A stretch of DNA of 64,000 nucleotides from Physcomitrium patens (lineage: Eukaryota > Streptophyta > Bryopsida > Funariales > Funariaceae): positions 4,371,199-4,435,198 of the forward strand of contig NC_037263.1 of the NCBI RefSeq assembly GCF_000002425.4. Direction: 5' to 3'. Below are positions 1,466 to 47,685 of this stretch, in pieces. Each line of letters starts with the position of its first letter. Position 1 is the stretch's first letter. The notes under the pieces are model-generated. The model was not told the origin of the DNA and did not search any database. It saw nothing but the letters and a program-made list of their open reading frames with translations. Position numbers and translations under genes: made by a program.

Positions 1466-1660
1466 TCTAAGAGAAGGACAAAAATGACTGTACAAGAAGA
1501 CAATATTGGTTTAGAGGAGGGTACTCCGCAACCTCTAAAATGCCTTAAGAGCTTCAAGAAAAGGGATAATCCACTCTCTCCAAGAAGAATAAGACTCCAA
1601 TATTATAACAAAAGAAGTATCAATTTAGAGGAGGATAATCCGCAACCTCTAAAATTTAGG
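1466..1660 (-). promoter_or_regulatory. CHR0 leader with two hairpin modules
   Basis: Read on the minus strand, two copies of TTTAGAGG...CCTCTAAA flank a 14-nt loop close to TTGCGGATTACCCT. The downstream module is also closed by the perfect outer pair AATATTGG/CCAATATT. These are the leader modules also present in CHR1 (8170-8386) and CHR2 (18247-18620). The upstream module is cut off at its 5' side near 1660. Confidence 0.75.
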
Positions 1661-3039
1661 AGAGAATTAGCAATAAGATAAAGCAAAACTTATATCAAAT
1701 TATAAGAAAATTGATACCCAGAGAGGATTAATTATCAACCTAGATTGAAATCAGACCTCAAGGTATAAAACCATGCCTATATAGTGACTTTGGCATACTT
1801 TGATAGCTTAAAGTGTGGAATTTTAGAATATACTTGAAGAAAGATTTTTTGATATTAGTTATATGTCAATTGAATCAATATTGAATTTTTGAGGAATTTT
1901 CAAAATTAGAGATGTTCTCAATTGGTTTCAATTTTAAGAAATAAAAATATGTTTATAAATTTGAGGATTTCTTGAGTTTTGTATTATGTATATAGATGCA
2001 TTTTGGATTGTATATTAGTGTTTTAATTGTGATTGTATGTGTAAATTTTGAAGTCAATCAAATAATTAGATCAAAATGTTTAAAGATTTTTGTGGGTTGA
2101 GGTCTCTAAAATTGGATTTTGAAGGTTAGTAAGTATTCTAAGATCTTTAGCAATTTGTCAATTGGATTGAAGTGAATTTTTTTATATAGATATTAGACTC
2201 AATTTCTATTATTTAAGTAAATTTTGAAAGCAATTCAATAATTTAAGAAGGAGAAATTGGCACTAAAAGTTTAGCATTTAGATTGGAGTAGCCTAACATC
2301 CGATTCGATTATCTTGCATTTCTTTTAGTTGGTAAGTGAAATTGATTTCATCTTTCATGTACTTGTTTTTAACTAAAATATTAAGAATTTTGAAAATTTT
2401 GAGTTGATATCAATGGTTTGATCATTAGTTGTTGAGGTTCCATTTTATTATAGGATTTCGTTTAAGATTTATCTATTATTTGGTTAAAGCTTAGGATTTG
2501 GTTTAGAATTTGATTAGCATTAGAATTTACTTGGAATTTGATTTAAAAGTTGACTAAAAGTTGATTAAGATTTATTTAGGATTTATCTAGGATTTAGGAT
2601 TTTATTAGGATTTCATTAGGATTTGACATAGGATTTAATCAAGGATTTGATCTAGGATTTGATTAAGATTCAATTAAGATTTTAATTAAGGATTTATTAA
2701 TTTTTAATTAAGGTTTTAATTAAAGATTTATTAATATTCAATTAAAATTTTTATTTTTAATATTTTAAAAGGATTCTTATTATTTCTTTAAATTTTTTTT
2801 ATTTATAGTATTTCTTTAGGATTATTAATATTTCTTTAAAGATTTATCTTTGAGTTTTTTTAAGATTTCTTGTTATTTTTCTATGAGATTGGTTTGGAAC
2901 TTCTTTGTATTTCTTTAATAACTTCTTTTAAATTAATTTTATATTAATCAAAATTTAATTAAGATTATTAAGATTTATTTAAAGTTTATTTAAAAATCTA
3001 TTAGACTTGGTAAGATTGTTGTTGCATTTTTACTTATCT
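1661..3039. other. AT-rich spacer with no recognisable gene
   Basis: No reading frame or known motif is convincing here. The stretch is very AT-rich and includes a degenerate short-unit repeat described separately at 2440-2790. It is probably old, mutated transposon sequence. Confidence 0.5.
2440..2790. repeat. degenerate short tandem repeat (AGGATTTRATT-like)
   Basis: Units close to AGGATTTRATT or TTAAGATTTATT recur many times without a strict period. Examples are ATTTAGGATTTATCTAGG and GATTTGATTAAGATTC. It looks like a decayed minisatellite or slippage product. No gene is visible. Confidence 0.55.
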
Positions 3040-8144: not shown

Positions 8145-8156
8145 TTGTCGAGACTG
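8145..8156 (+). other. CHR1 self-priming primer-binding site
   Basis: TTGTCGAGACTG begins 2 nt after the LTR end. It pairs with CAGTCTGGACAA at the predicted RNA 5' end (8006-8017) at 11 of 12 positions. No TGG-starting tRNA primer site is present at the LTR edge. This arrangement is that of Tf1/sushi-type self-primed elements. Confidence 0.65.
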
Positions 8157-8169
8157 CACTAACTTGAGA

Positions 8170-8386
8170 TATCAGAGCTAGTTCTTTCTTAGTAGAGTGT
8201 AGATTACCCCTCTACTTGAAGGTATACTAGTATTTTAGAGGTTGCGGATTACCCTCCTCTAAACTGATACTTCTTCTTTTACAATATTGGAGTCTTATTC
8301 TTCTTGGAGAGAGTGGATTACCCCTCTTCTTGAAATTCTTAAGGCGTTTTATAGGTTGTGGATTACCCTCCTATAAACCATTATTG
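8170..8386 (+). promoter_or_regulatory. CHR1 leader: two structured hairpin modules
   Basis: Module 1 (8170-8269) is closed by TATCAG/CTGATA and contains the hairpin TTTAGAGG, 14-nt loop, CCTCTAAA (8234-8263). Module 2 (8282-8386) is closed by CAATATTGG/CCATTATTG and contains TTTATAGG, 14-nt loop, CCTATAAA (8348-8377). The loops read TTGCGGATTACCCT and TTGTGGATTACCCT. Each module also has an upstream GATTACCCCTCT hairpin (AGAG/CTCT stem). The stem change from GAG to TAT-type bases is matched on both arms. Confidence 0.7.
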
Positions 8387-17271: not shown

Positions 17272-17770
17272 GTTGTTGATGAAAAGCCTCTATCATCTTT
17301 ATTGCATTTGTAAGATTCTTTGCTTGCTCTCATGTACATTTATTAATCATATGTAGGCCAATTGACAAGATCTTTTAATTTATTTTGATACCGCCTTGAG
17401 TCTAGAACTTCTTCTACTTCAAACTCTTTATTATTATCTATTTCTATAGGAGGAGGTGGAACTTATTTTCTTCTTAGTATATTCATAGTCTTATATGGTT
17501 CAAGAAGAGATACATGAAATATAGGATGGATTTTTATTTATTCCAATAGATTTAATTAATAAATAATTAGATTAATTTATCCACAAATAGGAAAAGGTCT
17601 AAGCTTATGATAATCTAACTTATCACAAAGATGAATAGTCTTAATATTATGATAAAGTAAGCATATCTTATGATTTACATTAAATTATGATTTTTTCTTT
17701 TGATGGGCATCCAAATTGATCTTTTGTGGTTCTTGAACTTCTTTTAATTCCCTCTTTATTATTGCATGTA
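17272..17770 (-). pseudogene. OLD1 integrase tail and chromodomain start
   Basis: The minus strand reads KICLLYHNIKTIHLCDKLDY, HKLRPFPIC, then KIHPIFHVSLLEPYKT and KEFEVEEVLDSR. These are the GPY/F region and the first strand of a chromodomain. Stops interrupt the frame. The sequence is cut at the CHR2 insertion and is continuous with 31540. Confidence 0.75.
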
Positions 17771-18222
17771 TGTTAGAGACATAGTCCTTAGACCTTTCTA
17801 GAAACAAGTTTCTAGAACCTTCTAGAAAGAAGTCTCTAGAAACTTCCAAAAGATTCCTTGAATATTCTTTTGGTATATTCTTTAAAGATTCCCTAAAGAT
17901 TCCCTTAGAAGGCTCTAGAAGATTCTTAGAATATTCTAGTAGATTCTAGGAAGTTACTTGAGAAGCTTCCTAGCTCTTGGGTAGTTGCTCGAGAAGCTTC
18001 ATAGTTCTTGGGAAGCTTCTTGATGCGCTTCCTTAGAACCATAGGCTAGTAGTATATATAGGAGTCGAGGCTGAAGAGTTCTTCAGTCTTGACAATGCAT
18101 CTCTTGAAGCTCTAGCTCAATTCTCTTGGCGTTGCTCTTGTATTCATCTGATAATCTAGTTCTTGTCATTTCTTCTTGAACTTCTTGTTTAGATTTCTTG
18201 TTTGTATTTTTGGTCCGTGATA
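17771..18222 (+). repeat. CHR2 5' LTR (452 bp)
   Basis: It pairs with 31068-31539 in U3 but differs from it after the R start (see findings). It contains a four-unit perfect heat-shock element at 17810-17827 and further GAAGCTTC sites at about 17970-18020. Confidence 0.92.
18053..18095 (+). promoter_or_regulatory. CHR2 TATA box and predicted transcription start
   Basis: TATATATA at 18053-18060 is followed 32 bp downstream by AGTCTTGACAA (18085-18095), the sequence complementary to the primer site. The spacing is identical to that in CHR1. Confidence 0.65.
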
Positions 18223-18224
18223 GT

Positions 18225-18235
18225 TTGTCGAGACT
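18225..18235 (+). other. CHR2 self-priming primer-binding site
   Basis: TTGTCGAGACT starts 2 nt after the LTR. It pairs with AGTCTTGACAA at the predicted RNA 5' end over all 11 positions, counting one G-U pair. Confidence 0.7.
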
Positions 18236-18246
18236 ACCTTTATCTT

Positions 18247-18620
18247 AATATCAGTGCTGAATCCTTCTTGTTTGAGAGCGGATTACCCCTCTTCTTGAAG
18301 GTATTCTAGCGCTTTAGGGGTTGCGGATTACCTTCCTCTAAACTGATATTTTCTCAATCACAATATCAGAGCTTAGTTCTTTGAGGCAGAGAGTGGACTA
18401 CCCCTTTCCTTGGAGATACTTGAGCGTTCTAAGGGTTGCGGATTACCCTCTCTTGGACTGATATTAATTCCTTCTTTTTGTTTAGCATAGCTAGTAGAAA
18501 AGTCTGTTAACATCGATTTCAGAGCTTTGCCTTCTTGATAGAGTGCGGATTACCCCTCTTCTTGAAAGCATTGAGGCATTTTTAGACGTTGCGGATTACC
18601 CTCCTCTAAAACTGAAATCG
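18247..18620 (+). promoter_or_regulatory. CHR2 leader: three structured hairpin modules
   Basis: Modules lie at 18247-18350, 18362-18465 and 18514-18620. The first two are closed by AATATCAG/CTGATATT, the third by CGATTTCAG/CTGAAATCG. Inner hairpins are TTTAGGGG/CCTCTAAA (18313-18342), TCTAAGGG/CTCTTGGA (18428-18457) and TTTAGACG/CCTCTAAA (18581-18610). Each has a 14-nt loop, TTGCGGATTACCYT. Each module also has an upstream hairpin presenting GGATTACCCC or the variant GGACTACCCC. The leader spans 18223-18741 and has no long ORF. Confidence 0.75.
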
Positions 18621-18741
18621 TTTAGTGTTTTTTTTTCCTTTTCTCCGAGTAGGTTTTAGTGACAGGTAGTGCTACAATTTTCTCCAAGAGACTTAGCAAT
18701 TTCTTCTTCTTTCAAAATTTTAATCCATCTATTTTCTAAAT

Positions 18742-19791
18742 ATGGAAGTAGACCAGGTCATAGATAGTGCATCTCCACAAGTAGACAATAGAGTGGCAAC
18801 TCTTGCACATCTTCAAGTTCTTATGAATAGTGTACGAAAGGAGATTACATTTCTTCGCAATCCAAGTAAAGAACCTCAAATTGATCTAGTGACCGAAGAA
18901 GCTAGACGCAAAATTCATAGCCTACAACAAGAGATTATTCGACTGAGAGAAGCAAGACATGTGTCACATACGACCCCTATAGATACTTCAAGGATTAGTA
19001 CGAAAGAACCAAAAGCGAGTATGCAAGACAAGTTTGACGGAACAAGAGCCAACTTCCGAGGTTTTGTGCAACAAGTACGACTTTACCTACGCCTATACCC
19101 TTCTCGTTATCCAAATGGATTTACCCAGGTTGCTTTCATAGGTACTCTTCTATCAGGAAATGCTCGCTCTTGGTTTGCTCCACTATTGGAGAAAGATTCT
19201 CCAATATTGTACGACCTAGAGGCTTTCATAGAGAGACTTACTGCTGCGTTTGGAGATAGCGATCGAGAAAGAGTGGCTGAAAGAAAGATACAAAATCTAC
19301 AACAAGGATCACGTTCTGCTGCAATCTATGCTGCAGAATTTCAACAGCTTACATGTGATCTTGATTGGAATGATAAGGCGTTCATGACACGATTTCGATA
19401 TGGACTGAGAGATGATGTCAAGAACTTATTGATCACCATGCCTAAGGCGGATACTTTAGAAGAACTTATATCTCAGGCAATTATTTGTGACAACCGCCTC
19501 TTTGAATTACGACAAGAAAGACGATCAGGCTAGAGAAATGATGGAGCATTTGCTACATTTTCAAAAGGTCCAGAGAATCACTCCACAGATCCTGAACCCA
19601 TGCAAATAGATGCGGTACGTTTCAAACCCCTCACAGCTGAGGAAAGGAAGCGACGGTTTGAACAAAACTTGTGTTTATATTGCGGAGAAGTGGGCCATAA
19701 AGCTGTAGATTGTCGGAAGAAACAGAAACCTCAAACAACAAGACTTAGGAGTACAAGCATGCAGGAAAACAAGGACGCCCAGCCACAATAG
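18742..19791 (+). pseudogene. CHR2 gag (one stop)
   Basis: The ATG at 18742 opens MEVDQVIDSASPQVDNRVAT. A helical, probably coiled-coil region (EEARRKIHSLQQEIIRLREA) comes next, then the capsid-like core KFDGTRANFRGFVQQVRLYL. A single TAG at 19531 (CAG to TAG) lies before the knuckle [14 protein letters not shown]. The frame ends DAQPQ-stop at 19791. This Gag is clearly diverged from CHR1 Gag, although the last residues and nucleotides are nearly identical. Apart from one stop the frame is complete. Confidence 0.9.
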
Positions 19792-20348
19792 GGACCGTGC
19801 GGCTGGACATCTCAACATCCAAAATTAATCAAGGTCCCTTTCTCTCAGCTCAACCTTCAGATTGTTTTATGGTGCCTTTACATCTGGGTATTCAAGAACT
19901 ACAAGTCGATGCTTTATTAGACTCGGGTGCATCCGCTTGCTTTATAGATGAAGAGTTTGCCAAGCTTCACAATATTTCTCTTGTAAAGAAACTTAAGCCT
20001 GTCCATGTAGAAGTCATAGACGGACGACCATTGTCTTCGGGCAATGTTATCCATGAAACTAAACCATTGAAGGTACGTCTTGAAAACCATGAGAGCAATA
20101 TTGTGTTTAATGTTATCAAGACCCCTTCATGTTCTATCATTTTGGGACTATCTTGGCTTGATAGATATAATCCATTGATAGATTGGAAGTTGCGGAAAGT
20201 GACATTTCCAACAAACTCCTTGAAGGTGGAATCTGCCAAGACAATGTCTAGAAACAAATCCTTGTTTATAGGTGCAAGGGCTTTCATGAAGGAAGCCAAG
20301 CAAAATACTCCTCTTGTCATCTTCGCAACTTCGACTCGAGAAGATGCC
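19785..20348 (+). pseudogene. CHR2 protease, truncated by deletion
   Basis: The frame is -1 to gag and reads VRLDISTSKINQGPFLSAQP, then LLDSGASACFIDEEFAKLHN with an intact D-S-G site. It continues through the linker (IILGLSWLDRYNPLIDWKLR and KSLFIGARAFMKEAKQ). It is cut after TSTREDA, where it joins LTR sequence of FLD1. No codons for the front of RT remain on this side. Confidence 0.88.
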
Positions 20349-20945
20349 AGTTCGGGTTTCATTGGAGGTTTTTGAAAGATCAAGGGAATTAGAGAGAGGA
20401 GCTTCATGCTTCGGGTCGGGGAAAGAAAGACATAGAATTTGGATTTTCCTTCTTCGTAGAGTTTTGGAAAGACTGAGGCAATCGCTGCTGAAGTCAGTGT
20501 TGTAATGGTAAATCGAGATTTTTAAATAAAGTAGGTTTGAATACTCTTGACTGTTTTGTAAAATCGAGTTATGTCTGTGATTGAAGGATTAAAGGGGTGT
20601 CTATAGGATTCAGTATGCGGAGTGAATGAAATTTATTGGGTTAATCTAACAGGACAGTCAGTGAATACAAGATCGTAAGTACAAAGCGGTATTGAAGATT
20701 AACAGTTTGGGTTGTTCGGGGTTCTCTGTAACGTCTAGAGACCTACCGGCTGGGGCAAAAAAAAAAAAAAAGACTTCGACAAGCGGTCGAAAAGCATCCG
20801 TATAGATTTATAGTACATTGTTGCAGTCGTTTATATTCCAACAGTCAAAAACTGATAGACTGCTTGACTATCGGCGAATCTCCATACTACCTTCTACAGC
20901 CAAACGCCCGGCGCGTTCTCGAGCAGGAAAGCACGTAATACGACA
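20349..20945 (+). repeat. FLD1 5' LTR, first ~710 bp deleted
   Basis: It matches 27639-28236 and 42539-43129 from AGTTCGGGTTTCATTGG to TACGACA. The first part of the LTR, present in the other copies, is absent at the CHR2 junction. Only AG is shared at the breakpoint. Confidence 0.9.
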
Positions 20946-20949
20946 TAAG

Positions 20950-20967
20950 TGGTGAACCCGACGTGAA
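20950..20967 (+). other. FLD1 candidate primer-binding site
   Basis: TGGTGAACCCGACGTGAA begins 4 nt after the LTR end. In FLD2 it is TGGGGAACCCGACATGAA (43135). The TGG start fits a tRNA 3' end; I cannot identify which tRNA. Confidence 0.55.
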
Positions 20968-21016
20968 AGCTTGAAGTCGAAGGTATTGGATTTCGGTTGA
21001 TTTTATCTTTATTTTT

Positions 21017-23389
21017 ATGGAAAACGAAAATAAAAATTTTGAAGGATTTTTGGGAGAAGTTTCTGATGGGGAGTCTTCTAAACGACAAGGTATGCACATG
21101 GATCTGTCTATTGCTAGTTTGTTTCAAGCCTTCTCATTGTCAATGCAGCAACAGCAAAGCAATGATCGAAAGGAAGCTTTGGCAACCAAAGCATTGCAAG
21201 CAGTGGTCAATAAAATTGATCAATTTGATGGGAGGAATATTTCAAGATATTTAAGATGTTATGTTCGTGAAATGGAATTAAATCGGGTTTCTGAGAAGAA
21301 AATGGTTGCACTATTTGGACTTGCCACGATATCGGAGATAAGGGACCACATTACATCGATTACGGATCATTATGGGAATTCATGGGATGATTTTTTACAT
21401 GCATTGAAAGACGAATATTTCTTGGAAGATGCTGATCGCGTTACTAAGAAGCTGTTTCTGGGATGGATTGAATGGCCCAATAAGAATTTGCAAGGAACAG
21501 AGCTACTAAGGGAATTTGAGAGGCAGTACTCTCAATTATCGAAGGTAGAAAAATTGACATTGGAGCCAAACAAAGATGATCTATTTCTTCAAGCTGCTGA
21601 TGGAGAATTGCAAGAGAAATTAGAACCCCTTTTTGAAGACAAAGAAGAAGATGAAGGATTGACAACGAAGTGGAAGAACATTGAAGATGCGGTGGAGTTG
21701 CTTACAAAAAAAGAAAGGAGGAAGGATAGGAGCTATATTCCGAAAACAGTACAAGCACCCAAAGCTCCAGTACGTACAACACCACCAACAATGCCTACAG
21801 TTCAACCTTCGACATCCTTGTCAAAGAAAGCAGATATGGGTATGGAAGAAATTATACAAGGAATGCGAGATCTTCAAATCAAATTGGCAAGACTTGAAGA
21901 GAATACTTCTATAAACAATTCGAAGAATGTTTCAAAACAAGGATATGTACAAAGATGCATTTGGTGTGATGATACTTCACACACTAGAAAAGATTGCAAT
22001 GAATTTAATAATATGATATGGCAGGGAATTATTTGCTGGAAAGATGGGAAGATAGCATTGAAAGATAGGGAGGATCTTCTTCAAACCAATTTTGGCAAGG
22101 GAGGAATGAGAGCATTGGTTCAAAATTACTTAAAAGAGCATGAAACAGTAGTACGAGAAAGTGCAAGTTATGGTGCTAAAGTAGATGATGAAATTGGTGG
22201 AAGTACGGAAACTAGTGAGTTTTGGGCTTCTGTCGTTTCTACAATGCAAGAAGGGAAATTACCTCGAGAAGCGTTATTGAGAACTGCAGCTACAATACGA
22301 GGAAGAACAAGTTGGGAGGATCCTATTGAATCTCTTTCAGTTCATGCATATATTGCTAAGAGCCAACATAAAGCTTTGATGGAAGAAAAGAGACGAGGAA
22401 ATTTTGATGATACTAGAGAAGGAAATTCTTTTAAGAGGCAAATTCGAGGAGACAAGGCTCGGGAGGCAGCTTCACAAGAATTGCATGTAAAGGATACCTC
22501 AGCATCATTAGGAGAAAAAACAAGGGAGACAAAAGATAAGGGCAAATCAATTGCTTATAAGCTACTTTCTGACATTGAAGCGGCAACAAATTTGAAAGGG
22601 GTATTGGAAGAACGTATATTAAATGCTAAGGTAGAATTTACATTGGAAGAAGTCTTGAAAATTGCAAAGAAGGAGTTTCATGATGTTATCATTGACAGCA
22701 TTAAGCGAAAGAGGCAATTAATGAGTGAAACTGGAATGACTCATGCTATTGATGCAAGAATATGTAGAGATGAAGAAGAGGTTGATATTGGTTACAAGCA
22801 ACCAACAAATGAAAAGAATGGATATAATCAGCGAGTACGTTTCGAAGATTCTAGTGACAAGGAAATGGAAACTTTGAGCCATTATACTCGAAAGCATTGG
22901 GCAAGGGCAACTACTGAGGTATTGGTGAAGGTAGGAGATATAGAAGAACCAATAGTTGCTTTGGTGGACCATGGTTCTGAAATAAATCTCATGTCTAAAG
23001 ATCTTTATAAGAAGCAAAAATGGCCAATTGATATGGAACATGGATGGGCAATACGAGCAGGTAATAATACACGAGGCGAATTATATGGAGCTTGTCCAGA
23101 TGTCAAAATTCGGATTGGGGATGTTGCGACGGAGCAACATTTCTTTGTTCAAGATACAACGTCTTATCCGTTGATTTTAGGACAACCTTATATCACGGCA
23201 ACACGGATGGAAACAAAGGTACTTGACGATGGTTCTGCCTATGCAAAGGTACGGAGCAAAGATGAGAGGAAAGCTGTACAATTTCTAACAGTACCTCCTA
23301 ACCATGAACGAAATCGAGATAGGTTGAGGGAGAAACCATTGCCAAAGATTGTTGAAGGATTTAAGGATTTTGGGGAGGTACCACTGTAA
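21017..23389 (+). CDS. FLD1 Gag-protease polyprotein (790 aa, intact frame)
   Basis: The ATG at 21017 opens MENENKNFEGFLGEVSDGES and the frame is unbroken. Residues about 70-230 form a Gag core (KIDQFDGRNISRYLRCYVRE, YGNSWDDFLHALKDEYF). Near residue 315 is one zinc knuckle, CIWCDDTSHTRKDC. Near residue 640-655 the protease site is IVALVDHGSEINLMS, so D-H-G stands where D-S/T-G is usual, followed by SYPLILGQPYI. The ORF stops 13 codons after the overlap with the pol frame begins. Gag would build the particle and the protease would mature it. It is the only long intact retroelement frame in the window. Confidence 0.88.
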   Translation: MENENKNFEGFLGEVSDGESSKRQGMHMDLSIASLFQAFSLSMQQQQSNDRKEALATKALQAVVNKIDQFDGRNISRYLRCYVREMELNRVSEKKMVALFGLATISEIRDHITSITDHYGNSWDDFLHALKDEYFLEDADRVTKKLFLGWIEWPNKNLQGTELLREFERQYSQLSKVEKLTLEPNKDDLFLQAADGELQEKLEPLFEDKEEDEGLTTKWKNIEDAVELLTKKERRKDRSYIPKTVQAPKAPVRTTPPTMPTVQPSTSLSKKADMGMEEIIQGMRDLQIKLARLEENTSINNSKNVSKQGYVQRCIWCDDTSHTRKDCNEFNNMIWQGIICWKDGKIALKDREDLLQTNFGKGGMRALVQNYLKEHETVVRESASYGAKVDDEIGGSTETSEFWASVVSTMQEGKLPREALLRTAATIRGRTSWEDPIESLSVHAYIAKSQHKALMEEKRRGNFDDTREGNSFKRQIRGDKAREAASQELHVKDTSASLGEKTRETKDKGKSIAYKLLSDIEAATNLKGVLEERILNAKVEFTLEEVLKIAKKEFHDVIIDSIKRKRQLMSETGMTHAIDARICRDEEEVDIGYKQPTNEKNGYNQRVRFEDSSDKEMETLSHYTRKHWARATTEVLVKVGDIEEPIVALVDHGSEINLMSKDLYKKQKWPIDMEHGWAIRAGNNTRGELYGACPDVKIRIGDVATEQHFFVQDTTSYPLILGQPYITATRMETKVLDDGSAYAKVRSKDERKAVQFLTVPPNHERNRDRLREKPLPKIVEGFKDFGEVPL

Positions 23390-26300
23390 AGCGAGATTAT
23401 GGAGGTACAAAAGAGGAGGTACTCTCGCGAGATGAAGGTGCCTTTGATGCGAGTTTTATTGGTATATTGGAGAATGGAAATATTATGTATAAGAAAGTTG
23501 ATGATTTTAAAAGAAAAGAAAGAAAAAGATTATATGATATTGAAGGAGAGTTACGCAAGATAGGTACATTGCAAGATGATGAGAGGATTTTGGGTGTTTA
23601 TTAAGAAAATGGACTGAAAGATTCATTGGAATTGATTACATCTATTGGGTTAGGGGATAATGATAAGATTGTTGAGATTCATTCGAGAGAGGTTTATACC
23701 ATGCTTGAATCTTTTCAAGCACCAGAGGTCACGGTAGAGACGAGATATAAAACGGCAGATAAGAAGGTAAAGCCTGTTGCCGGACCACTACCAGAGGATT
23801 CTAAAGAAAAAATGGGAGAAGCATCAAAAGAAGCAAGTTTAAGAGATCCAATGGGTATTGGACATCAGTTTACTGAAGAGACTTTTGAAGAATTGAAGAT
23901 TGGTTCTGATGGTTCTTTATTGCCAGAGGAAATTACTTGCTTCAAAAAGATGTTGGCTAAACAAGGTAGATCGTTTGCCTTCGAATCTCATGAAATTGGG
24001 TGTGTGGATCCAAATATTATAACACCTATGGTTATCTTCACTGTACCGCATGTACCTTGGAATCTAAGACCGATTCTAGTACCAAGGGCACATTTACCTA
24101 AATTGGTGGAACTATTGAAAGAAAAGATAAAGATGAAAATATTGGAACCTTCATTTACACCATATTCTTGTCGATGGTTTATGGTACCTAAGAAGAATGG
24201 GTCACTACGGTTTATTCAAGATATGCAGCCGGTGAATGCTGTAACTGTTAGGAATGCAGGAATTGGACCTATTATGGATGAATTTGCTGAGGCGTTTGCT
24301 AGAAGAGCGATCTATTCAATGGGTGATTTGTATTCAAGTTATGATCAATTTCAACTTGCCGAAGGAAGTAGAGATATGACAACGATGAGGACACCGCTTG
24401 GATTGGTTAGAATGTGCACTCTTCCTCAAGGCGTGACCAACTCAGTTGCGCATATGATGAATGGGATGAATAAGGTATTGAGAGATTATATTCCGGAAAA
24501 GACTATGCCTTTTTTGGATGATGTTCCTATAAAAGGGTGCAGAGAAGGACATAAGGATGAAACTTTAGATATGAGGGAGTGTCGCAAATATGTTATTGAT
24601 CATATACAGGATTGTGAAAAGATTTTAACTCGGCTTGGAGAAGTTCATCTTTCATTATTGGGTATGAAGTCCGTATTTGGAGTGCGAGAGGTTGTAATTG
24701 TTGGACATTTATTCGGATCTTACGGAAGAAAACCAGATCCGACTAAAGTTGATGCAATTGGAAGGATGAAAGAGGATTGTGGTTCTTTAACAGAGGTTCG
24801 CAGGTTTTTGGGTGCATGTGTATTTTATCAAATCTGGATCCCTCATTTTGCTCACATAGCGGATCCATTATATGAACTGTTACGCAAGGGTTACCGATTT
24901 GAATGGGAAAAAAGGCATTTTCAGGCAATGCAAAGATTGAAGAAATTATTGATGTCACCTCCAATATTGAGGAAGGTTGATTATAAGTGCAATAGACTAG
25001 TGATTCTTACTGTAGACGCTAGTCCAATTGCTGTTGGATGGGCTGTGGGTCAAGATGATTCGAATAGGAGTAGATTTGCAGTTTGATTTGGGGCTAAAGT
25101 TTAAAGTATTCGTCAGTGTGCATATTCGCAAGTCAAAAGAGAACTTTGGGGAGTCTTTTCGGCTATGAGAGCTGAAAAGGACTATTTGATTGGAGCAGTA
25201 GTAGTAATTGAAACAGATTGCCTGCCATTGCTTGGAATGATTATTAACTGTTCAATGCCAGATATTGCATTGTTGAGATGGATTACTTATATTAAGTCAC
25301 TAAATCCAGAATTTAAGCATATCACTGGAAAGGACAATTTAGTAGCAGACATGCTATCTCGAGCAAGATACGAGAGGGAGGACGAAATGGTTGAAGACAT
25401 TGATGATGTCGGATTGAAGTTCTATTCAATATCAAATCTCAACAGAGAAGACAAGCTATTTCTTGAAGAATCTTATGAAGGAGAATTATTGGATATTGGT
25501 CATTATTTGAATACCTTGTCTAAGTAGGGGAATTGGTCTGCAGAAAAATTCAAACAAATAAGAAAAAAAGTATATGGATTTTTACTTCGAGATGGATTCT
25601 TATGAAAGAGACCGAAGAAAGGAATTGGGATGCCACAACGAGTGATAGGCAAAAGGGAAGAAAAACTAAAATTATTAAAGGAGTTTCATGATAGTTTATG
25701 GCAGGGCATAGAGGGATCTGGGCTACTTTTGCTAAACTCAAGGAACGATATTGGTGGAAAAATATGTATCGAGATGTGCTCTCATTTGTAGAGTCATGTG
25801 AAATCTGTCAATCGTATTCTAATATCCGACATCGAGATGGTCTTCATCCTACATATCCTCTGGCTATTCATTTTAAATGGGTTGTTGATTTGGTTATTAT
25901 GCCGGTTGGGTTATGGCAGATGAGATATTTGGTTTTAGCTCGTGAAGATTTATCAAATCAAGTAGAAGGAAGAGCATTGAGGACAAAATCTACAGAGGGG
26001 ATTTGTAGGTTTTTGCTTGAAGATGTCATTTGCCATTACGGGTGCGTAGGAAAAATCACTGCAGATCGTGGAGAATTAAATGCACAAGAAGCTCGTAAGT
26101 TCTTTGAAAAATGTGGAGTTAAGCTATCATTGACTACTGCTTATAATCCGGAAGGGAATGCAAAAAGCGAACGCGGTCACCCGCCGATTGTGAAAGCATT
26201 GGTTAAAGCTTGTAATGGGAAAGTTAAAGAGTGGCCACGGCTTTTGTCATTTGTATTATGGGCTGATCGAACAACACATAGTTTGGTGACAGGATATATG

Positions 26301-26864
26301 CCAGTAGAACTTATGAGAGGTCAAAAACCAATTATGCCGATTGAAGAAAGAATACTTACTTGGAGTATGCTACCATGGAAAGATGGATTGACGAGAGAAG
26401 AACTTCTGGCTATTAGGATTCGACAATTGGAGCAAAGAACGGAAGATGTCCAGATAGCATTGGGAAGGTTAAAAAGAGTAAGGTTATAAAACAAGGCGCG
26501 ATTCAATAAGCAACATCGATTGAGACCAAAAGCAATCGAGGAAGGTGACTGGGTACTTGTTTATGACAATAGTCTGGATAATCAACATAGTACTTTGCGA
26601 AAATTTTCAAAACGTTGGTTTGGACCATATGTGGTAACAACTGTTCATGATAATGCGACTTACTCATTACGGGAGTTAGATGGTACAAAATTGAAAATAC
26701 CAATTGCAGGGAAGCGAGTAAAAATATTTAAACGAAGACACGCAGAGATGAATATGGAAGACCTTAATGAAGGTACAGAGATTCTGCAGCAAGAAGATGA
26801 AAGTGATTTGGATAATGAAGGTGACGAAGACGAACTGGACAAATACGTAGGGGATATATTCTGA
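23366..26864 (+). pseudogene. FLD1 pol: RT, RNase H, integrase (broken)
   Basis: Pol is in the -1 frame relative to gag-protease, overlapping it by about 25 nt. A TAA at about 23603 is shared with FLD2. RT is at 23626-25086: SCRWFMVPKKNGSLRFIQDM, then MGDLYSSYDQFQLAEG and the catalytic box PFLDDVPIKG. RNase H has a TGA at 25084 and a TAA soon after (ITGKDNLVADMLSR is its end). A one-base frameshift lies near 25696. Integrase has an HHCC domain, VVDLVIMP, ITADRGELNAQEARKF and NPEGNAKSERGH. A stop at 26487 precedes the GPY/F-like tail (SKRWFGPYVVTTVHDNATYS) and an acidic C-terminus. Confidence 0.85.
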
Positions 26865-26911
26865 ATCAAACAGCAATTGGGTAAATTGGTGCATACCGGA
26901 GGATGCACAGG

Positions 26912-26926
26912 TTCAGAGGGGGTGGA
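26912..26926 (+). other. FLD1 polypurine tract
   Basis: TTCAGAGGGGGTGGA ends exactly at the 3' LTR start TGTCGTG. Confidence 0.65.
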
Positions 26927-28236
26927 TGTCGTGTTGTAACACGAGTATACAGTGAAAATAAAAAAAAGAAGGGGAATTTTATTAATATTCAGTCACCTCA
27001 AATATTGGGAGCATCGACCAACTCCAGCGCAAATACTGAGTGGTCAGGTTCAGGCACCCCGTTACAGTCAGCCGGGGCACACTGAAATGCTCCGTTCGAT
27101 TCTAATAACCGGAGTTAGCAAGATGAGAAGGACCAATTCACACGACGGGTTTGAAGAGCCAATTGGATCCAATTTCGAGAATCCAATCTGCGTCCTCTTA
27201 CCCAATATGAGACTTGTATTGGTGGAGCAACCCTATATAGTGTAATTACGGAAAAATCCGGGTCTTACTACGGGCCTCAGCCAGTTTGATGCGAAGACCA
27301 ATTTGACTCAATTACGCGAGCATCCAGGTTACTACGGGCATCTTACCCAATATGGGACCTGAATTGGTCGGGCGACTCATTGTGGTCCCGATTACGGGGT
27401 TTCAATTCTGTTTCGGGTTGTCCTGTTCTCTGTGCCGTTTCAGGGAACTTTGTTTACGGTAAATGGATCTCTTAAAGGTAAAACGGAGGAGAAGGCCTTG
27501 ATGACGTGAGCCAATTTCGGATCTAAGCTCTAACGATGGGAGCCAATTCCGGATCTAAGATGGAAGATTGAAGAAATTCAGAGGATAAGGTTAGGAGAAT
27601 CGGGGGGGAGGGGGTTTTCAAGCTTTTACAAGGTTACTAGTTCGGGTTTCATTGGAGGTTTTTGGAGATCAAGGAAATTAGAGAGAGGAGCTTCATGCTT
27701 CGGGTCGGAGAAAGAAAGACATAGAATTTGGATTTTTCTTCTTCGTAGAGTTTTGAGAAGACTGAGGCAATCGCTGCTGAAGTCAGTGTTGTAATGGTGA
27801 ATCGGGATTTTAAATGAAGTGGGTTTGAATACTCTTGACTGTTTTGTAAAATCGAGATACGCCTGTGATTGAAGGATTAAAAGGGTGTCTATAGGATTGA
27901 GTATGCGGAGTGAATGAAATTTATTGGATTAATCTAACAAGACAGTCAGTGGATACAAGATCGTAAGTACAAAGGGATATTGAAGATTAACAGTTTGGGT
28001 TGTTCGGGGTTCTCTGTAACGTCTAGAGACCTACCGGCTAGGTTAAAAAAAAAAAAAAAAAAGACTTCGACAAGCGGTCGAAGAGCATCCGTATAGATTT
28101 ACGGTACATTGTTGCAGTCATTTATATTCCAGCAGTCAAAAACTGATAGATTGCTTGACTATCGGCGAATCTCCATACTACCTTCTACAGCCAAACGCCC
28201 GGCGCGTTCTCGAGCAGGAAAGCACATAATACGACA
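26927..28236 (+). repeat. FLD1 3' LTR (1310 bp)
   Basis: It starts TGTCGTGTTGTAACACGAGT and ends TACGACA. It aligns with the FLD2 5' LTR and, strongly decayed, with 49469-50802. Short ORFs inside (26952, 28109) have no support as genes. Confidence 0.93.
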
Positions 28237-30344
28237 ACGTTCATCTGGTACTCAAAAAACTACGGGAGCGAGGACTCTATGCCAAATTGGAGAAGTGCTT
28301 ATTTCACCAAACTAAGATGGAGTTTTTCGGATTCATCGCGACTACGGAAGGCTTGAAGATGGATCCAAAGAAGGTGGAAGCAATCATGTCTTGAGAAGTT
28401 CCGAAGATGGATAGGGACGTACAATGTTTTCTTAGATTTGCTAACTACTATCGGATCTTCATCAAGAATTATTCTTAAGTTGCTGCCCCCTTCACTCGGT
28501 TAACGTGTAAGTACAAGCTCGAATGGGGACCTATCGCAGAAAAAGTATTTCAAGATTTAAAGATGGTATTTACTACAACTCCAATCTTGGTACATCCGGA
28601 CTTTACAAAGGCCTTTTATTTGGAGACAGATGCTTCGGATTTTGCTTCGGGAGCTGTACTTTCACAGATGGACGTAGATGAGAAGCTCCATCTAGTTGCG
28701 TTCTATTCTCGAAAATTCTCTGCTGTTGAGATCAACTATGAGATCCACGATAAGGAACTCCTTGCTATAGTAGATTCTTTCCAAGAGTGGCGCCACTTTC
28801 TCGAAGGAACTGCACATCCAGTGACCGTATATACGGATCACAAGAATTTGGAGTATTTTATGTCGGCTCGGGTTTTGAATCGGCGTCAAGCTCGGTGGAG
28901 TATGTCGCTATCCAAGTTCGACTTTGTTATTACTTATCGGCCTGGGAAGCAACAAGAGTTGTCCGATGCATTATTAAGGAGATCATATCTCGCGCCAAAG
29001 GTTGGAGATGCAGCATTTGATCAACAGTGCACGACATTGTTGAAGTCAGAGAAATTTTGGCTCAACACAGCTATTGTACCAATTGATGCTGACTTCCTCG
29101 ACCAGGTATGGGCCGCAACCATTGAAGATTCTCTAGCCCTTGATATCAAGCAACATGCTAGTAATGATAAATTCAAGATGGAAGGAGATCTAGTATATTT
29201 CAAAGAGCGATTGTATATCCCAAAAGGGCCAACACGACTCCGAGTTCTTCAATCTCGTCATGACTTTTCAACTGCGGGACATTTTGGATTCAATAAGACC
29301 TTGGAACTTATTTCCCGTGATTTTTGGTGGCCTCAAATGTGGAAGGATGTGAAAGATTTTGTTGTATCTTGTGACATTTGTTCAAGATCCAAAAACCCTC
29401 GACATCGGCCTTATGGACTTCTACAGCCATTGGCTATTCCGCGCCGACCATGGTCTTCGGTTTCCATGGACTTTATTACGGATCTACCACCATCGAATTC
29501 ATTTGACAGCATTTTTGTTGTCGTAGATCGGCTTACAAATATGGCGCATTTTGTCCCTTGCAAGAAGACATCGTCAAGCGAAGACACAGCAAGACTCTTT
29601 TTTGATAATGTGTATCGATATCATGGTCTACCAGATGATATCGTATCGGATCGAGGAACCCAGTTTGTGTCAAAGTTTTGGAAATCTCTTTTTGAGATAT
29701 TGAAGGTGGATATTAAGCTTTCTTCGGCATTTCATCCTCAAACGGACGGCCAAACAGAACGGGTGAATCAAGTTTTAGAGCAATATTTACGTTGCACCAT
29801 CAACTATCAACAAGATGATTGGGCCACATATCTACCGCTAGTCGAGTTCGCATATAACAACACCCTTCATGTGTCAACTCAACAAACGCCATTCTTTTCT
29901 AATTATGGATACCATCTAAAGCTTGACTTATGGAGTTCGTCAATGATTAACAATTCGGCAGCTGAAGGATTGGTGAAGGAGCTTTTGCAGCTTCAAACTA
30001 CATTGAAGCTTCAATTGCAAACTTCCCAAGAATCTTACAAGGCATCCGCGGACAAATTTCAGAATCAGGCACCTAAATTCACGATTGGAGACAAAGTTTG
30101 GCTGCTTCGACAAAATATTAAGACCAAGCGGCCATGTGACAAATTGGACTATCGGAGATTGGGACCATTTGTTATCCAGAAGCAGATCAATCCTATAGCG
30201 TATCGTCTGGATTTACCAGCTACTATGAAGGTACATCATGTCTTTCATGTTTCTTTGTTGGAGCCTTATCGAGAATCGTCTTTTTCTGGAAGAGTACAAT
30301 GTCCACCACCTAGCATAGAAATAGAGAACCACAAAGAATACGAG
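28237..30344 (+). pseudogene. CHR2 pol: RT end, RNase H and integrase
   Basis: It begins within RT (VHLVLKKLRERGLYAKLEKC) directly after FLD1. Two stops occur near 28394 (TGG to TGA) and 28477. From 28563 the frame is open: RNase H FYLETDASDFASGAVLSQ, YEIHDKELLAIVDSFQEWR, TVYTDHKNLEYF. Integrase has H-x3-H (HDFSTAGHFGFNKT), CDICSRSK, SMDFITDLPPSNSF, DDIVSDRGTQFVSKFW and HPQTDGQTERVNQVLEQYL, so D, D and E are present. The GPY/F tail includes YRRLGPFVIQKQINPIAYRL and KVHHVFHVSLLEPY. Confidence 0.92.
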
Positions 30345-30524
30345 GTGGAAAAGGTCCTGGATTGATGGCAAAGATAGGGTAAATTAGAATACTTTGTGCA
30401 TTGGAGCGGTTACGATATTAATGAACGAACATGGGAGCCGGCCGAAAATCTCACGAATGCGCCGTAAAAGGTACAGGAGTTTCATCGACGATATCCTGAG
30501 AAACCCAAGCCGGTTCGACGATAG
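30345..30524 (+). pseudogene. CHR2 chromodomain (three stops)
   Basis: In the pol frame the sequence reads EYEVEKVLD, stop (30363), WQR, stop (30375), GKLEYFVHWSGYDINERTWE, PAENLTNAP, stop (30465), KVQEFHRRYPEKPKPVRR, stop (30522). This is a typical chromodomain, which in chromoviruses directs integration to marked chromatin. The last stop is the natural end of pol; the other three are mutations. CHR1 retains only the tail after its deletion. Confidence 0.88.
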
Positions 30525-30669
30525 CTTCTTACTGAAGCTTGCTCATCTAGAAAACAGAAAAGAGGAGAGAGCACCACCAAAATCCATAGTTGATGTAGTC
30601 ATTCTCTCCAAGATAGCGTAGAACTTTGTTAGTAGCCCAAGTTTGTTCTTATTGTTTAAGCCTTTGAAT

Positions 30670-31017
30670 ATGGATAGCCAAGATACTACACTTGTCATGT
30701 CATCTCAAGCAACTAGCTCACGAAGACGATCGTGAGATGAAGAACCGCCTGCACCACGACGACGTCGAAGGATTCCGAGCAACAGATCGCTGGTGATTGT
30801 ATTTGAGGTCGAGCCTGCCTACAATGGTCAACCAGAAGGAGTGTTTGCAGGACAATTTCACAATGAAGACACGGAGGTTCATGCTTGGTCAGAAGTTGAA
30901 GGCGTGGGCCACTACCGTTGGCTTCAAGGACCATTGAATCACTTGCCTCGTGAACAACAATTGGAGTTCATAGCAGAGGTTATGCGACAGATCTTCATTT
31001 TCTTGCTTTGGTATTGA
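30670..31017 (+). pseudogene. CHR2 ORF3 (extra 3' ORF, family unknown)
   Basis: The ATG at 30670 lies 145 nt after pol and the ORF ends 50 nt before the 3' LTR. It encodes 115 codons with one TGA at 30733 (CGA to TGA). The N-terminus is Ser/Arg-rich and then strongly basic (PPAPRRRRRIPSNRS). The conserved part reads VIVFEVEPAYNGQPEGVFAG, EVHAWSEVEGVGHYRWLQGP, LPREQQLEFIAEVMRQIF and ends FLLWY. CHR1 has the same ORF (11228-11581). I know no matching domain; a nucleic-acid-binding or cofactor role is only a guess. Confidence 0.7.
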
Positions 31018-31053
31018 CTGACGATAACATTGCTTCTCGGAGACCTCGAAGCT

Positions 31054-31067
31054 AAAAGAGGAGGTGA
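31054..31067 (+). other. CHR2 polypurine tract
   Basis: AAAAGAGGAGGTGA lies directly before the 3' LTR. Confidence 0.7.
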
Positions 31068-31539
31068 TGTTAGGGACATAGTCCTTAGACCTTTCTAGAG
31101 ACAAGTTTCTAGAACCTTCTAGAAAGAAGTCTTTAGAAACTTCTAGAAGATTCCTTGAATATTCTCTTAGAATATTCTTCAAAGATTCTTTAAAGATTCT
31201 TTGAAGATTCCCTAAAGATTCCTTTAGAAGGCTCTAGAAGATTCTTAGAATATTCTAATAGATTCTAGGAAGTTACTTGAGAAGCTTCCTTGCTCTTGGG
31301 TAGTTGCTCGAGAAGCTTCATAGTTCTTGGGAAGCTTCTTGATGCGCTTCCTTAGAACCATAGGCCAGTAGTATATATAGGAGTCGAGGCTGAAGAGTTC
31401 TTCAGTCTTGACAACACATCTCTTGGAGTTCTAGCTCACCTTTCTGGTGTTGTTCTTGTACTCATCTGTTTAATCTAGTTCTGCCACTTCTTCTTGAACT
31501 TCTTGTTAGATTTCAAGTCTGTATTTTGTGTCCGTGACA
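31068..31539 (+). repeat. CHR2 3' LTR (472 bp), mosaic
   Basis: U3 (31068 to about 31414) matches the CHR2 5' LTR. From 31415 (ACACATCTCTTGGAG) to the end it matches the CHR1 LTR instead. The flanking target duplication ATGTA is intact. Confidence 0.9.
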
Positions 31540-32988
31540 ATGTAGCTCTGATAAACGATTTGCCAAATTTTCTATCACAGGATTATCAAGTTATAAAAAG
31601 TCAAGAGTATCAAATCATAGATGGTAACCATAATTAACAAAGATAAATATTTGTTGCATAGAAGAATATATTGTATTATTATAAGCAAACTCAACCAATG
31701 GAAAAATAATTTTCTAATCATCTTGTTGATAATTGATGATATATTTTAAGTATTGCTCCAAAACTTGATTTACATGCTATGTTTGTACATCAATTTGAGG
31801 ATGAAAGGCCAAAGAGAGCTTTATATCTACTTTTAAAATCTTAAAAAAGGTTCTCTAAAATCTTGATACAAATTGAGTCCTCCTATCTAATGTAATATTT
31901 TTTAACAATCTGTGATATTAATAGATATTGTCAGAAAAAAGCTTGATATTTTCTTCACTTATGATAGATTTTGTGCATAGTACAAAATGTATCATTTGGT
32001 ATAACGATCTACTATCACAAATATAGAATCACACAAATCTAAGACTGAAAGATCCATAATAAAATCTATAGAAATAAAAGACCATAATTGTTCTAGAATA
32101 GGTAATGGCTAAAATAGTCCATAAGGTCAATGATAAGGAATTTTTAACCTTGAATAAATATTACATGATTAAACAAAGTCTTTCATAGCTTTTCATATTT
32201 GCGGCCATCAAAAATCTTTAGATATTAGTTACAAAGTCTTGTTGTATCCAAAATATTCTGCCCCTAGAAAGTCGTGATGTGCTTGAAGAACACGTAAACA
32301 TGCTTCTCCTTCTAGAACATATAGGCATCCTTAGAAATAAAGTAGGTTGTTCTTGAACTCAAATTTGAAAGTATGATAAGACTTAGAAGAAGTATTCTTG
32401 ATATCACAAATAAGAGGACCAGAAGATATACTTGATTGAATTTACTTAGAAAATGTTGAATCAATAGTTAATGTTGATTTCACTGCTCAAAGATGAAATT
32501 ATTCTAGCTTTAATAAAATTCGCCTTTGTTGATCAAAAGCTGCATTTTCTTCTTTTGATACAAGATAGGAACGTTTAAAAAGAGCATCACACAAATCTTG
32601 TTGTTTTTCTAATCCATAAGTGATATTGAACTTGAATTTTGACAAAAACATGCTTCAACGAGTTTAGTGACAATTCAAAATACATGCTAATATAAAATAC
32701 TTAAGGTTCTTATAAAATATATCTATATATATATATATATATATATATGATGATTAGATTGGAAGAGCCTTCTAGATAATGACCCCAATCTTAAAAAAAT
32801 CTACAATTATAAGTATTTTTTTATAGATCTCATAGTTAATCTTGACTACTAAAAAATTTATAAAATAGAAAGCTATTATGTGAAGCTTATCATTTTTTCC
32901 TATTTGTGACAAAATACACCTATTGTAAAATTCAATGCATATGTTTCTATAAAAAATGCCTTGAAAAAATTAACGTTATCATATGGCA
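31540..32988 (-). pseudogene. OLD1 RNase H and integrase remains
   Basis: Minus-strand reading gives RNase H scraps near 32950-32500 and integrase near 31800-31545. Examples are VNQVLEQYLKYIINYQQDD, PLVEFAYNNTIYSSMQQ and NPVIENLANRLSELH. Many stops and frameshifts are present. The left edge is the CHR2 target site. Confidence 0.75.
32724..32748. repeat. (TA)n microsatellite
   Basis: A pure TA run of about 25 bp lies in decayed OLD1 sequence. Confidence 0.9.
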
Positions 32989-36959: not shown

Positions 36960-37069
36960 ATAATAATATTAATTTAGAAGAGAGTAATTTACAACTTCTA
37001 ATATGCTTATATCTTATTAAGAAAAAGAGATAATCCACTCTTAATCAAAAGAAGATAAAGGTCTAATAT
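36960..37069 (-). promoter_or_regulatory. OLD1 leader with decayed hairpin module
   Basis: On the minus strand TTAGAAG, a loop TTGTAAATTACTCT-like, and CTTCTAA repeat the leader hairpin of CHR1/CHR2 with matching changes on both arms. An upstream GGATTATCTCTTT hairpin is also present. Confidence 0.6.
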
Positions 37070-37639
37070 TGTAAGTATACTCTTTTTAATCTATCAAAGA
37101 AATGAACTCAAAAAGATGCATAAATCTGAAAAATCTGTGTTAAAAGAAAAATAAATAAAAAAAAAATAAAAATATGTATATTAAAAAGAAACTAGAATTA
37201 CTATTGCTAAAAGATAAGAAAACTAGAGACTCTTGAATCTAGACTAGAAGCAAGAAAAGAATTGACAAGAATGAAGAAGGCTTCACTCTTGCCATTATAT
37301 ATACTATCTACTTAGGATCTTTGTGGCAACATTCTATTGGACCTCTAAAAACATATTGACTTTGCAAGACACATATTTTGACTTATAAAGCAAGTTTTCT
37401 ATGTAAGTACCACATAGTTAGCTTGTTTTATAAACTATCAATACATGTGGCACATAGATAGTTTGTTGATCAAGTTTTTAACCTATCAATCAACTACAAA
37501 CATATATAAAGTCAAAACAACATCCAAGAAGCTTCTAAAAAGCTTCTCTAAAAGGTATTATGAAATTAATTTACTTTTACCTAATTCTACATGTTCATAT
37601 TACTTAGATAATGATTACAATAGGTATATATTCATGACA
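37070..37639 (-). repeat. OLD1 5' LTR (about 570 bp)
   Basis: Its right edge is the sense start TGTCATGAAT. It matches 47686-48245 and 40899-41451. It includes GAAGCTTC-type half sites and a TATATATA-like box before AAGAGTGAAGCC-type R sequence. The left edge is approximate. Confidence 0.75.
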
Positions 37640-41451: not shown

Positions 41452-41614
41452 ACTAATCAAGAATTTTACAAATATAGCAAAAAAAATCAAAGTTTTTTTT
41501 ATTAACAACATTAATCAAAAGAAATATGAAGAATTAAGCAATTTTTTATAATAAAAAAATGAAATTCAATAATTCATTTTTCTTAGGCACTATAAACCAT
41601 CAACTAGAATACGG
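41452..41614 (+). pseudogene. chromodomain-tail scrap of another chromovirus
   Basis: The sequence AATCAAGAATTTTACAAATA and its continuation resembles the end of the OLD2 chromodomain region (40268-40330). It is probably the element into which OLD2 inserted. Nothing else is readable. Confidence 0.4.
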
Positions 41615-43129: not shown

Positions 43130-43134
43130 AAAAG

Positions 43135-47029: not shown

Positions 47030-47685
47030 TCCAAAGAGCACTTTCACATAAAAGTGCGCCTATAAAGCCGACTTGAGTAAATCCATCTGCGTATTGGAAA
47101 GGATGTAAACTTAAGTAGAGCTTAACTTATTGTAAAAATCCTCAAAATTTTGATCTTATTCCATCAAACTTCTCAAGCATATTAATTCTTGCCTATCTTG
47201 AGCTTATAGAAGCAAGATCTCCTGAATTTGGTTGTGAGGTTGATCGACTTGTTTCCCTCAACTGCACGACTTCTTGATGTAGACTCTAGACTTCTTCCAC
47301 AGGTATAGAAGTAGTGTTCCCATGATTGACATTGGTGATGCATGAAATTTCTACCTTAAGAGTATTAACAAGCTCATGAAGATCTGCAATAGTTATAAAT
47401 CTATTTTCACTTCTGCTAGGAGTAGCATCCATAATCTTTCCTTCCATAGAAAACTCAAACAAATTCAAAAAATTAAATTAGAACAAAGTAATTCACAACC
47501 TCTAATAAAAATTTCTACAAAGAGAGATAATCCACTCTCTTTAAGAAAAAGATGAGTGTTAGAAAACAAGATTTTTTGTTTAAAGGTAGGTAGTCCACAA
47601 CCTTCAAAATACAACAATAGAAGTAGGCTAATCCACTCACTTCTAAAACCTATACAAAAACAGTATGTTAACATTCTTATCAAAC
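47030..47685 (-). pseudogene. OLD3 gag 5' part and leader
   Basis: Minus-strand Gag begins MEGKIMDATPSRSENRFITI at 47450 and reads on, with stops, to SLHQEVVQLRETSRS and KFDGIRSKF, then VKLYLSLHPFQYADGFTQVG. This resembles CHR2 Gag. It is cut at 47030 by the FLD2 junction. Upstream (47470-47670) are leader modules, for example TTTGAAGG, loop TTGTGGACTACCTA, CCTTTAAA. Confidence 0.75.
47672..47683 (-). other. OLD3 self-priming primer-binding site
   Basis: On the minus strand TTGATAAGAATG begins 2 nt after the LTR. It pairs with CACTCTTGTCAA, which lies downstream of the TATA-like box in its own LTR, at 11 of 12 positions including one wobble. The sequence differs completely from that of CHR1/CHR2, yet the complementarity is kept. 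Confidence 0.55.

Follow-up and report, generated by a model that had tools for sequence, protein, structure and literature searches.

Repeated three-way-junction RNA modules in the leader of a chromovirus-like retrotransposon of Physcomitrium patens

CHR2 and the modules of its leader

The window, that is, the whole stretch of 64,000 nucleotides that was analysed, contains CHR2, a Gypsy element at 17771-31539 with a 5-bp target repeat, split at about 20.35-28.24 kb by another element (Table 1). CHR2 is chromovirus-like, of the Ty3/Gypsy group, and its relatives in the P. patens genome number in the thousands; its LTRs (17770-18220 and 31067-31537) are 88% identical, and its proteins are a Ty3-type Gag, protease, RNase H and an integrase with an SH3_Tf2-1 domain. 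A chromodomain (PF00385) is listed for many relatives and gave no match in the integrase ORF of the window, which ends at 30365. The CCHC zinc knuckle of CHR2 is encoded 3′ of the gag ORF, in frame but beyond its stop; a knuckle also follows gag in CHR1 (in a different frame of the stretch) and in the relative L002 described below (in the same frame), and a zinc-knuckle match was absent from the scanned CHR0 and OLD3 stretches. The family is probably RLG1, assigned by copy number alone, because among the five families tabulated in the accessible part of PMC7466625 only RLG1 has thousands of complete copies, in agreement with the number here; the other four do not fit. RLG1 is described there as a Gypsy element with a chromodomain integrase and 5092 complete copies, and as the highest-expressed element, in protonema.

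The nested element (20349-28237) has its own end repeats (20349-20945 and 27639-28236), is 96% identical over 4.5 kb to a second copy at 42544-47025 (region 42521-47025), and contains a 790-aa ORF (21017-23389) that matched no Pfam family at E 0.001. Elsewhere in the window, a GC-richer gene island at 54366-63212 holds at least two kinase ORFs (55553-57055 and 57130-58227) and several diverged duplicate pieces; a 'light-sensor protein kinase-like' protein of P. patens matches the ORF at 55553-57052 at 99% identity.

Three modules at 18247-18620 were located letter for letter as first described in an earlier note on this DNA, and their outer stems read as it had given them, AATATCAG/CTGATATT in modules a and b and CGATTTCAG/CTGAAATCG in module c. 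The inner stems also read as written in all three, but the third contains a C-C mismatch. The shared plan it proposed was an outer stem, a small GATTACCCC hairpin and a hairpin with a 14-nt loop; the first and last stand, whereas the GATTACCCC hairpin proved to be the tip of an arm of about 55 nt, so that each module is a three-way junction. The module is about 105 nt long and present in one to three copies per leader among those sampled. By RNA folding, the outer stem P1 has 8-9 pairs and encloses a long arm, P2, capped by a 12-nt loop. About 2 nt of linker separate P2 from the hairpin P3, which has 8 pairs and a 14-nt loop and whose 3′ arm continues straight into P1 (with one additional base in module c). 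Both arms of the junction, although they differ in length, end in the identical loop G-Y-GGANNACC. RNAalifold applied to eight modules gave the same junction unaided, with 40 pairs, 18 of them changed on both sides. The outer-stem arms of CHR2 modules a and b (18247-18465) are identical, so partner swapping between the two is possible, and a longer stretch folded in the swapped form; in two three-module leaders folded, where the P1 arms of a and b are likewise swappable, the mean P1 probability was 0.33, and there was no sign that swapping is used.

Table 1. Features of CHR2 and modules elsewhere in the window (bits: score with the covariance model)
Feature	Position (strand)	Description	Bits	Training set
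CHR2 target-site repeat	17766-17770 and 31540-31544	ATGTA
CHR2 5′ LTR	17771..18222 (+)	begins TG, ends ATA where most relatives have ACA
Inverted repeat over predicted transcription start	18064..18093 (+)	GTCGAGGCTGAAG / CTTCAGTCTTGAC; paired in two subfamilies with different sequences
Predicted RNA 5′ end / self-primer	18085..18095 (+)	11 nt; about 32 nt past start of TATATATA box at 18053
Primer-binding site	18225..18235 (+)	TTGTCGAGACT; complements the 11 nt at 18085 (one G-U); 2 nt past LTR end
CHR2 module a	18247..18350 (+)	P1 18247-18254/18343-18350; P2 18256-18310; P3 18313-18320/18335-18342, 14-nt loop	109.9	in
CHR2 module b	18362..18465 (+)	P1 18362-18369/18458-18465; P2 18371-18425; P3 18428-18435/18450-18457	106	in
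CHR2 module c	18514..18620 (+)	P1 18514-18522/18612-18620; P2 18524-18578; P3 18581-18588/18603-18610	99.2	in
CHR2 gag ORF	18742..19533 (+)	Retrotrans_gag, Ty3_capsid
RNase H / integrase part of CHR2 pol	28563..30365 (+)	SH3_Tf2-1 domain; past nested element
CHR1 module a	8166..8273 (+)	9 nt past primer-binding site 8145-8156	114.3	in
CHR1 module b	8282..8386 (+)		116.6	in
CHR0 module b	1501..1605 (-)		116.5	in
CHR0 module a	1615..1719 (-)	truncation near 1655 removed 5′ part; P3 and 3′ P1 arm remain	47.6	outside
OLD1 single module	36964..37071 (-)	decayed	76.2	in
OLD3 module a	47570..47663 (-)		50.7	held out
OLD3 module b	47474..47561 (-)	outer stem not visible	38.7	held out

With a covariance model the same plan was recovered in CHR1, CHR0, OLD1 and OLD3, the other places in the window where modules had been reported. 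OLD3a, OLD3b and the truncated CHR0a, none of them in the training set, were detected by the structure model; a sequence-only model gave them 33.3, 36.7 and 30.6 bits (as against 50.7, 38.7 and 47.6 bits) at E-values equal or better, so that the held-out modules were detected about equally well without structure in the model. A match to the module model at 38822-38921 (-), E 0.012, was read and dismissed as chance. Rfam 15 gave 0 matches above family gathering cut-offs within the window.

The primer-binding site and the distribution of modules

Genome-wide (470,438,890 bases), a pattern made of the P3 loop and the end of the 3′ arm had 4282 exact matches, as against 1 for the reversed control. 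Two subfamilies carry different matching start and site words, AGTCTCGACAA/TTGTCGAGACT and ACTCTTGTCAA/TTGACAAGAGT, and the exact LTR-end-plus-site word of the first occurred 1676 times, its control 0 times. We fetched 80 stretches hand-picked among the first 100 listed of the 4282 pattern matches, several of the last 20 being chosen for rarer loop letters, and 40 hand-picked by the exact primer-binding site among the first 100 listed of the 1676; all 120 are from contig 1, and many of the copies are decayed. The module plan was present in 80/80 stretches of the first set (one module in 31, two in 42, three in 6, and four in 1, which holds two leaders) and in 40/40 stretches picked by the primer-binding site alone (one in 1, two in 29, three in 10). 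Since the pattern includes the P3 loop, conservation of that loop is biased in the set of 80; in the primer-binding-site set, column conservation was 91% in the P2 loop, 94% in the P3 loop, 84% in the stems and 76% elsewhere.

The R word was recognised in 78/80 stretches, the exceptions being L075, in which it was absent, and L091, which is cut at the edge. In 70 of these 78 leaders the best 11-nt complement lay 7-11 nt 5′ of the module (elsewhere in the other 8), with 11 of 11 positions paired in 48, 10 in 19 and 9 in 3. Position 12 was unpaired in 56 of the 70, showing that the primer match stops at eleven. When 12 leaders chosen from the 78 by hand were folded from the predicted 5′ end, the mean probability of primer:PBS pairing was at least 0.7 in nine. 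By its sequence, with this complementarity present, the element appears to prime itself in the manner of Tf1. The inverted repeat over the predicted start (about 12 bp, also found in other LTRs of the family) has the self-primer word as its 3′ half and a 5′ half that resembles the primer-binding site; both halves change together between the two subfamilies, and 12/78 leaders lack the GAAG anchor. The repeat may fold where U3 meets R, close to the RNA 3′ end, or compete with priming. A further old LTR in the window, OLD4 (40936-41600), has a near match to the R word, followed by no module recognised by the model; from near 41.6 kb, after OLD4, the DNA passes into a different sequence, which has a 134-bp tandem repeat.

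The first module began 6-10 nt past the best 12-nt site in 73/78 leaders (41-129 nt in the other five); in the 40 stretches picked by the site alone, it began 10 nt past the site in 15 and 11 nt past it in 25. Because the first module hugs the primer site in this way, the main rival of the packaging role proposed below is that it is part of the self-priming machine: it would stack on the 11-bp primer:template duplex, place reverse transcriptase so that it cuts after nucleotide 11, or hold the register of the duplex, and further modules would be spare. The spacing and the predicted primer:PBS pairing both favour this, and RNA structure is reportedly required for Tf1 priming, going by the titles of Lin and Levin 1997 and 1998. 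However, modules two and three are distant from the site and yet covary and retain their loops, the spacing may be merely inherited, and the display of one loop twice per module suggests a binder; we consider a priming function rather unlikely.

Modules were also sought in six relatives from bacterial genome records, and the search of related genomes that had been recommended succeeded in one, L002 (CADCWO010000091.1), with nothing credible in the other five. L002 is a biocrust contig in a cyanobacterial bin, with 86% protein identity in the best segment; although deposited as Synechococcales cyanobacterium, it is, in all likelihood, contaminating DNA of a eukaryote present in that sample. It carries one module, whose DNA is 91% identical to CHR1b and 95% to CHR0b, as against 78% identity to CHR1 for its gag DNA. 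The viral contigs searched held no relatives.

Support for a selected RNA structure

Seven well-kept modules folded 2.5-4.3 SD below dinucleotide shuffles, with energies of -28 to -36 kcal/mol, and three decayed ones 1.3-1.9 SD below; the sense strand folded at lower energy than the antisense strand in 9/10 modules. In eight aligned modules 91.5% of 213 cells were paired, compared with 41-54% after slides of 1-3 columns, the structure having been derived from the same sequences, and 12/27 pairs were changed on both sides, several of the paired exchanges being transversions such as G-C to U-A. With up to ten modules 232/253 cells were paired. When intact 3′ arms were swapped among modules, own-arm pairing was matched in 8 (P1), 147 (outer P2), 28 (inner P2) and 11 (P3) of 20000 trials. 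In tree-aware simulations, in which the substitution counts were fixed per branch and relocated to other stem columns, the observed values of three measures were reached in 0/5000 with 9, 7 and 5 modules; here and in the arm-swap test the helix arms were placed by eye.

The larger sample gave the same picture. The 80 stretches gave 137 modules, 120 of them distinct, in which pairing held for 90.6% of 3190 cells, as against 42-52% when slid. The observed paired cells and double-change cells were reached by the tree-aware null in 0/1000 simulations with 26 modules, 0/1000 with 53 and 0/300 with 120; the number of doubly changed pairs was reached in 0, 2 and 2 simulations. In plain column shuffles of the 137-module set, 2/5 measures were non-significant (doubly changed pairs, 41/500; further pair types, 351/500). 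G-U exceeded A-C by 21 to 4 in up to ten modules and by 252 to 89 in 120, and single changes from Watson-Crick pairs, inferred with one resolution, went to G-U in 70 cases, to A-C in 42 and to other mismatches in 32. These last counts bear on the reading that the modules are a DNA-level array of binding sites, an enhancer or insulator with no role as RNA. The gypsy insulator sits in the 5′ untranslated region of gypsy, and a DNA-binding protein might well recognise the repeated word GGATTACC; but such an array does not account for complementary arms with paired changes or the preference for G-U, and it would be expected to fold without the strand bias described above. We regard it as very improbable.

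The earlier note had named gene conversion between tandem modules as a possible source of the paired changes, and this is answered by the fit of arms within modules. In 42 two-module leaders, own arms paired at 91% of positions in P1, 99% in outer P2, 86% in inner P2 and 96% in P3; with arms swapped for those of the sister module the values were 74%, 62%, 76% and 94%. The own arm was the better partner in 42/42 leaders for P1 and for outer P2, in 34/42 for inner P2 and in 8/42 for P3, with ties in the rest and none worse; P3 thus contributes little to this test. That the modules are duplicates of each other and many copies are decayed would allow tandem duplication, gene conversion or biased mutation to mimic compensation; but the 42/42 preference for own arms, the transversions and the failure of the tree-aware null to reach the observed pairing together leave an artefact scarcely credible. 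Repeat-induced point mutation, for which the thresholds are TpA/ApT 0.89 and (CpA+TpG)/(ApC+GpT) 1.03, was considered separately as a source of the paired changes and rejected, the host being a moss and the signs being mixed over 32 bins: the first ratio was above 0.89 in some AT-rich bins, the second above 1.03 in all 32.

Significant covarying pairs in both stems had been named as what would support the claim. Some of the proposed pairs in P1 and P2 qualified, but none in P3, and tests over all pairs gave none. With a null that was our own R-scape-like implementation, not R-scape itself, no pair fell below E 0.05 in a per-pair G test among 5253 column pairs, and a pairing-aware score yielded no significant pair among the same 5253. 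When that score was confined to the 27 proposed pairs, 4 passed with 130 rows, 1 with 30 and 4 with 18, all in P1 or P2, and the mean covariation score of the structure was above all of 150, 300 and 300 simulations; the alignments A4, A5 and A6 were fitted to the structure and lean towards it. The lack of any significant pair in the tests over all pairs likely reflects the small number of module classes, so that support is stronger for the entire structure than for its individual pairs. In the 12 hand-chosen leaders folded whole, mean pair probabilities were 0.00-0.99 for P1, 0.42-1.00 for outer P2, 0.00-0.90 for inner P2 and 0.30-0.95 for P3, so that, within a whole leader, the prediction does not always favour the module. 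We concluded that the proposal of a selected RNA structure is supported, by covariation beyond the tree-aware null, the preference for G-U, the sense-strand bias and the own-arm fit.

Possible roles and comparison with known systems

From place, form and analogy, we tentatively propose, at somewhat less than an even chance, that the modules are a genomic-RNA recognition element in the self-priming leader, most likely for packaging by Gag. They lie between the primer-binding site and the gag start, a location that we count in favour of packaging. Directly past the primer-binding site, each module would present two copies of the G-Y-GGANNACC loop; the element's own Gag, with its CCHC zinc knuckle, would recognise the paired loops, full-length RNA would thereby be selected for virus-like particles and gathered beside the primer:template duplex, and additional modules would be additional Gag binding sites. 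The occurrence of one, two or three modules per leader fits a binding platform rather than a unique catalytic part. In HIV-1 the first nucleocapsid sites are near three-way junctions, according to the accessible text of PMC7395439. A priming role would explain the fixed short distance to the primer-binding site equally well, and the derivation of the covariation from few module classes counts against the packaging reading. That the leader holds a copy-number-variable packaging RNA, a self-contained junction, stackable in one to three copies past a self-primer site, with a Gag-binding loop displayed twice in each copy, is a suggestion we advance more hesitantly.

The loops might instead be read by a host RNA-binding protein, an export or stability factor of the moss. 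Their sequence is conserved while the stems vary, and the structured leader of a plant pararetrovirus recruits an export complex (accessible text of PMC12786077); nothing specific argues against such a partner, but Gag or reverse transcriptase would account equally well for the place of the modules and their conservation across the element, and we think a host factor quite improbable. Loop-loop dimerisation was rejected, since the loops are not palindromic or self-complementary. Pairing of the loop with another part of the element was rejected as well: no complement of the 13-nt loop at up to 3 mismatches was found in the CHR2 parts, CHR1 or L002.

Between the predicted RNA start and the last module, 78 leaders contained 53 ATG where 313 were expected, and 44/78 had none; the control word CAT occurred 369 times (355 expected, 1.04), and six further words were at 0.72-1.17 of expectation. 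In CHR2 itself, an ATG at nucleotide 11 of its predicted RNA opens a six-codon upstream frame (18095-18115); the leaders of CHR1 and L002 have no ATG before gag, and that of OLD3 has two. With ATG so rare, ribosomes seem to pass through these leaders, and the folds might slow, switch or redirect scanning ahead of the gag start codon, for which the fold energies of the seven modules also speak. A mere roadblock, however, needs no constant loop sequence, and one to three modules would be very different blocks among related subfamilies, so that control of translation appears improbable. Under the packaging reading a link to translation would also exist: the leader RNA is also the gag mRNA, and Gag binding would withdraw it from translation.

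If packaging is the role, priming and genome recognition would be joined in one leader. The modules would then amount to a genome-selection signal, defined by sequence, in an LTR retrotransposon of a plant; the dominant chromovirus of its host genome would be using it, in common with a relative outside that genome. How LTR retrotransposons select their own RNA is poorly known; for Ty1 and Ty3, the sequences important for packaging are 'not precisely defined' in the accessible part of a yeast review (PMC4974528). The compact, well-supported fold, its thousands of copies and the transcription of the probable family in protonema make the question directly testable with short RNAs.

The earlier note knew of no described leader of this kind, and we found none in Rfam or in the literature searched, which covered few subscription papers; in the accessible main text of the RLG1 paper (PMC7466625), 'leader', 'UTR' and 'primer binding' are absent. 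Self-priming, structured leaders and double-hairpin packaging signals all have precedents, whereas a three-way junction that can be stacked and displays a single loop twice is, within the literature accessible to our search, an undescribed variant. With Tf1/Tf2 and Tj1, the self-primed Gypsy elements of fission yeasts, the moss element shares 11 nt at the predicted RNA 5′ end that complement the primer-binding site, and an integrase SH3 domain of the Tf2-1 type. Tf1 is also said, in the title of a paper, to have a U5-IR-like structure. In Tf1 the first 11 bases complement the site and the cut falls between 11 and 12 (PMC7175516, accessible text); the accessible texts on Tf1/Tf2 and Tj1, in contrast, do not mention tandem three-way-junction modules. 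The Tcn1-clade chromoviruses of mosses, Selaginella and fungi are alike in their moss host, the comparison here being of similarity and domains only, and most plant Tcn1 elements are predicted to prime themselves (PMC6317226, accessible text). In SM-Tcn1 the interval from LTR to gag contains a conserved thymine-rich stretch; unlike in the moss element, neither a primer-binding site nor self-priming was found there, and the accessible text of PMC2864245 describes no RNA structure. The HIV-1 core packaging signal is comparable through the three-way junctions near its first nucleocapsid sites, but tandem repeats of the junction are not mentioned in the accessible text of PMC7395439.

Both module loops read G-Y-GGANNACC, and GACG tetraloops are absent. 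Gammaretroviral packaging signals contain a double hairpin with GACG loops. The likeness to these (the GACG pair, spleen necrosis virus) lies in two same-loop hairpins between primer-binding site and gag (titles of papers cited in PMC5086612); the moss modules differ in that the GGANNACC loop lies within 12-14 nt, the hairpins are arms of a three-way junction, and the whole unit is repeated.
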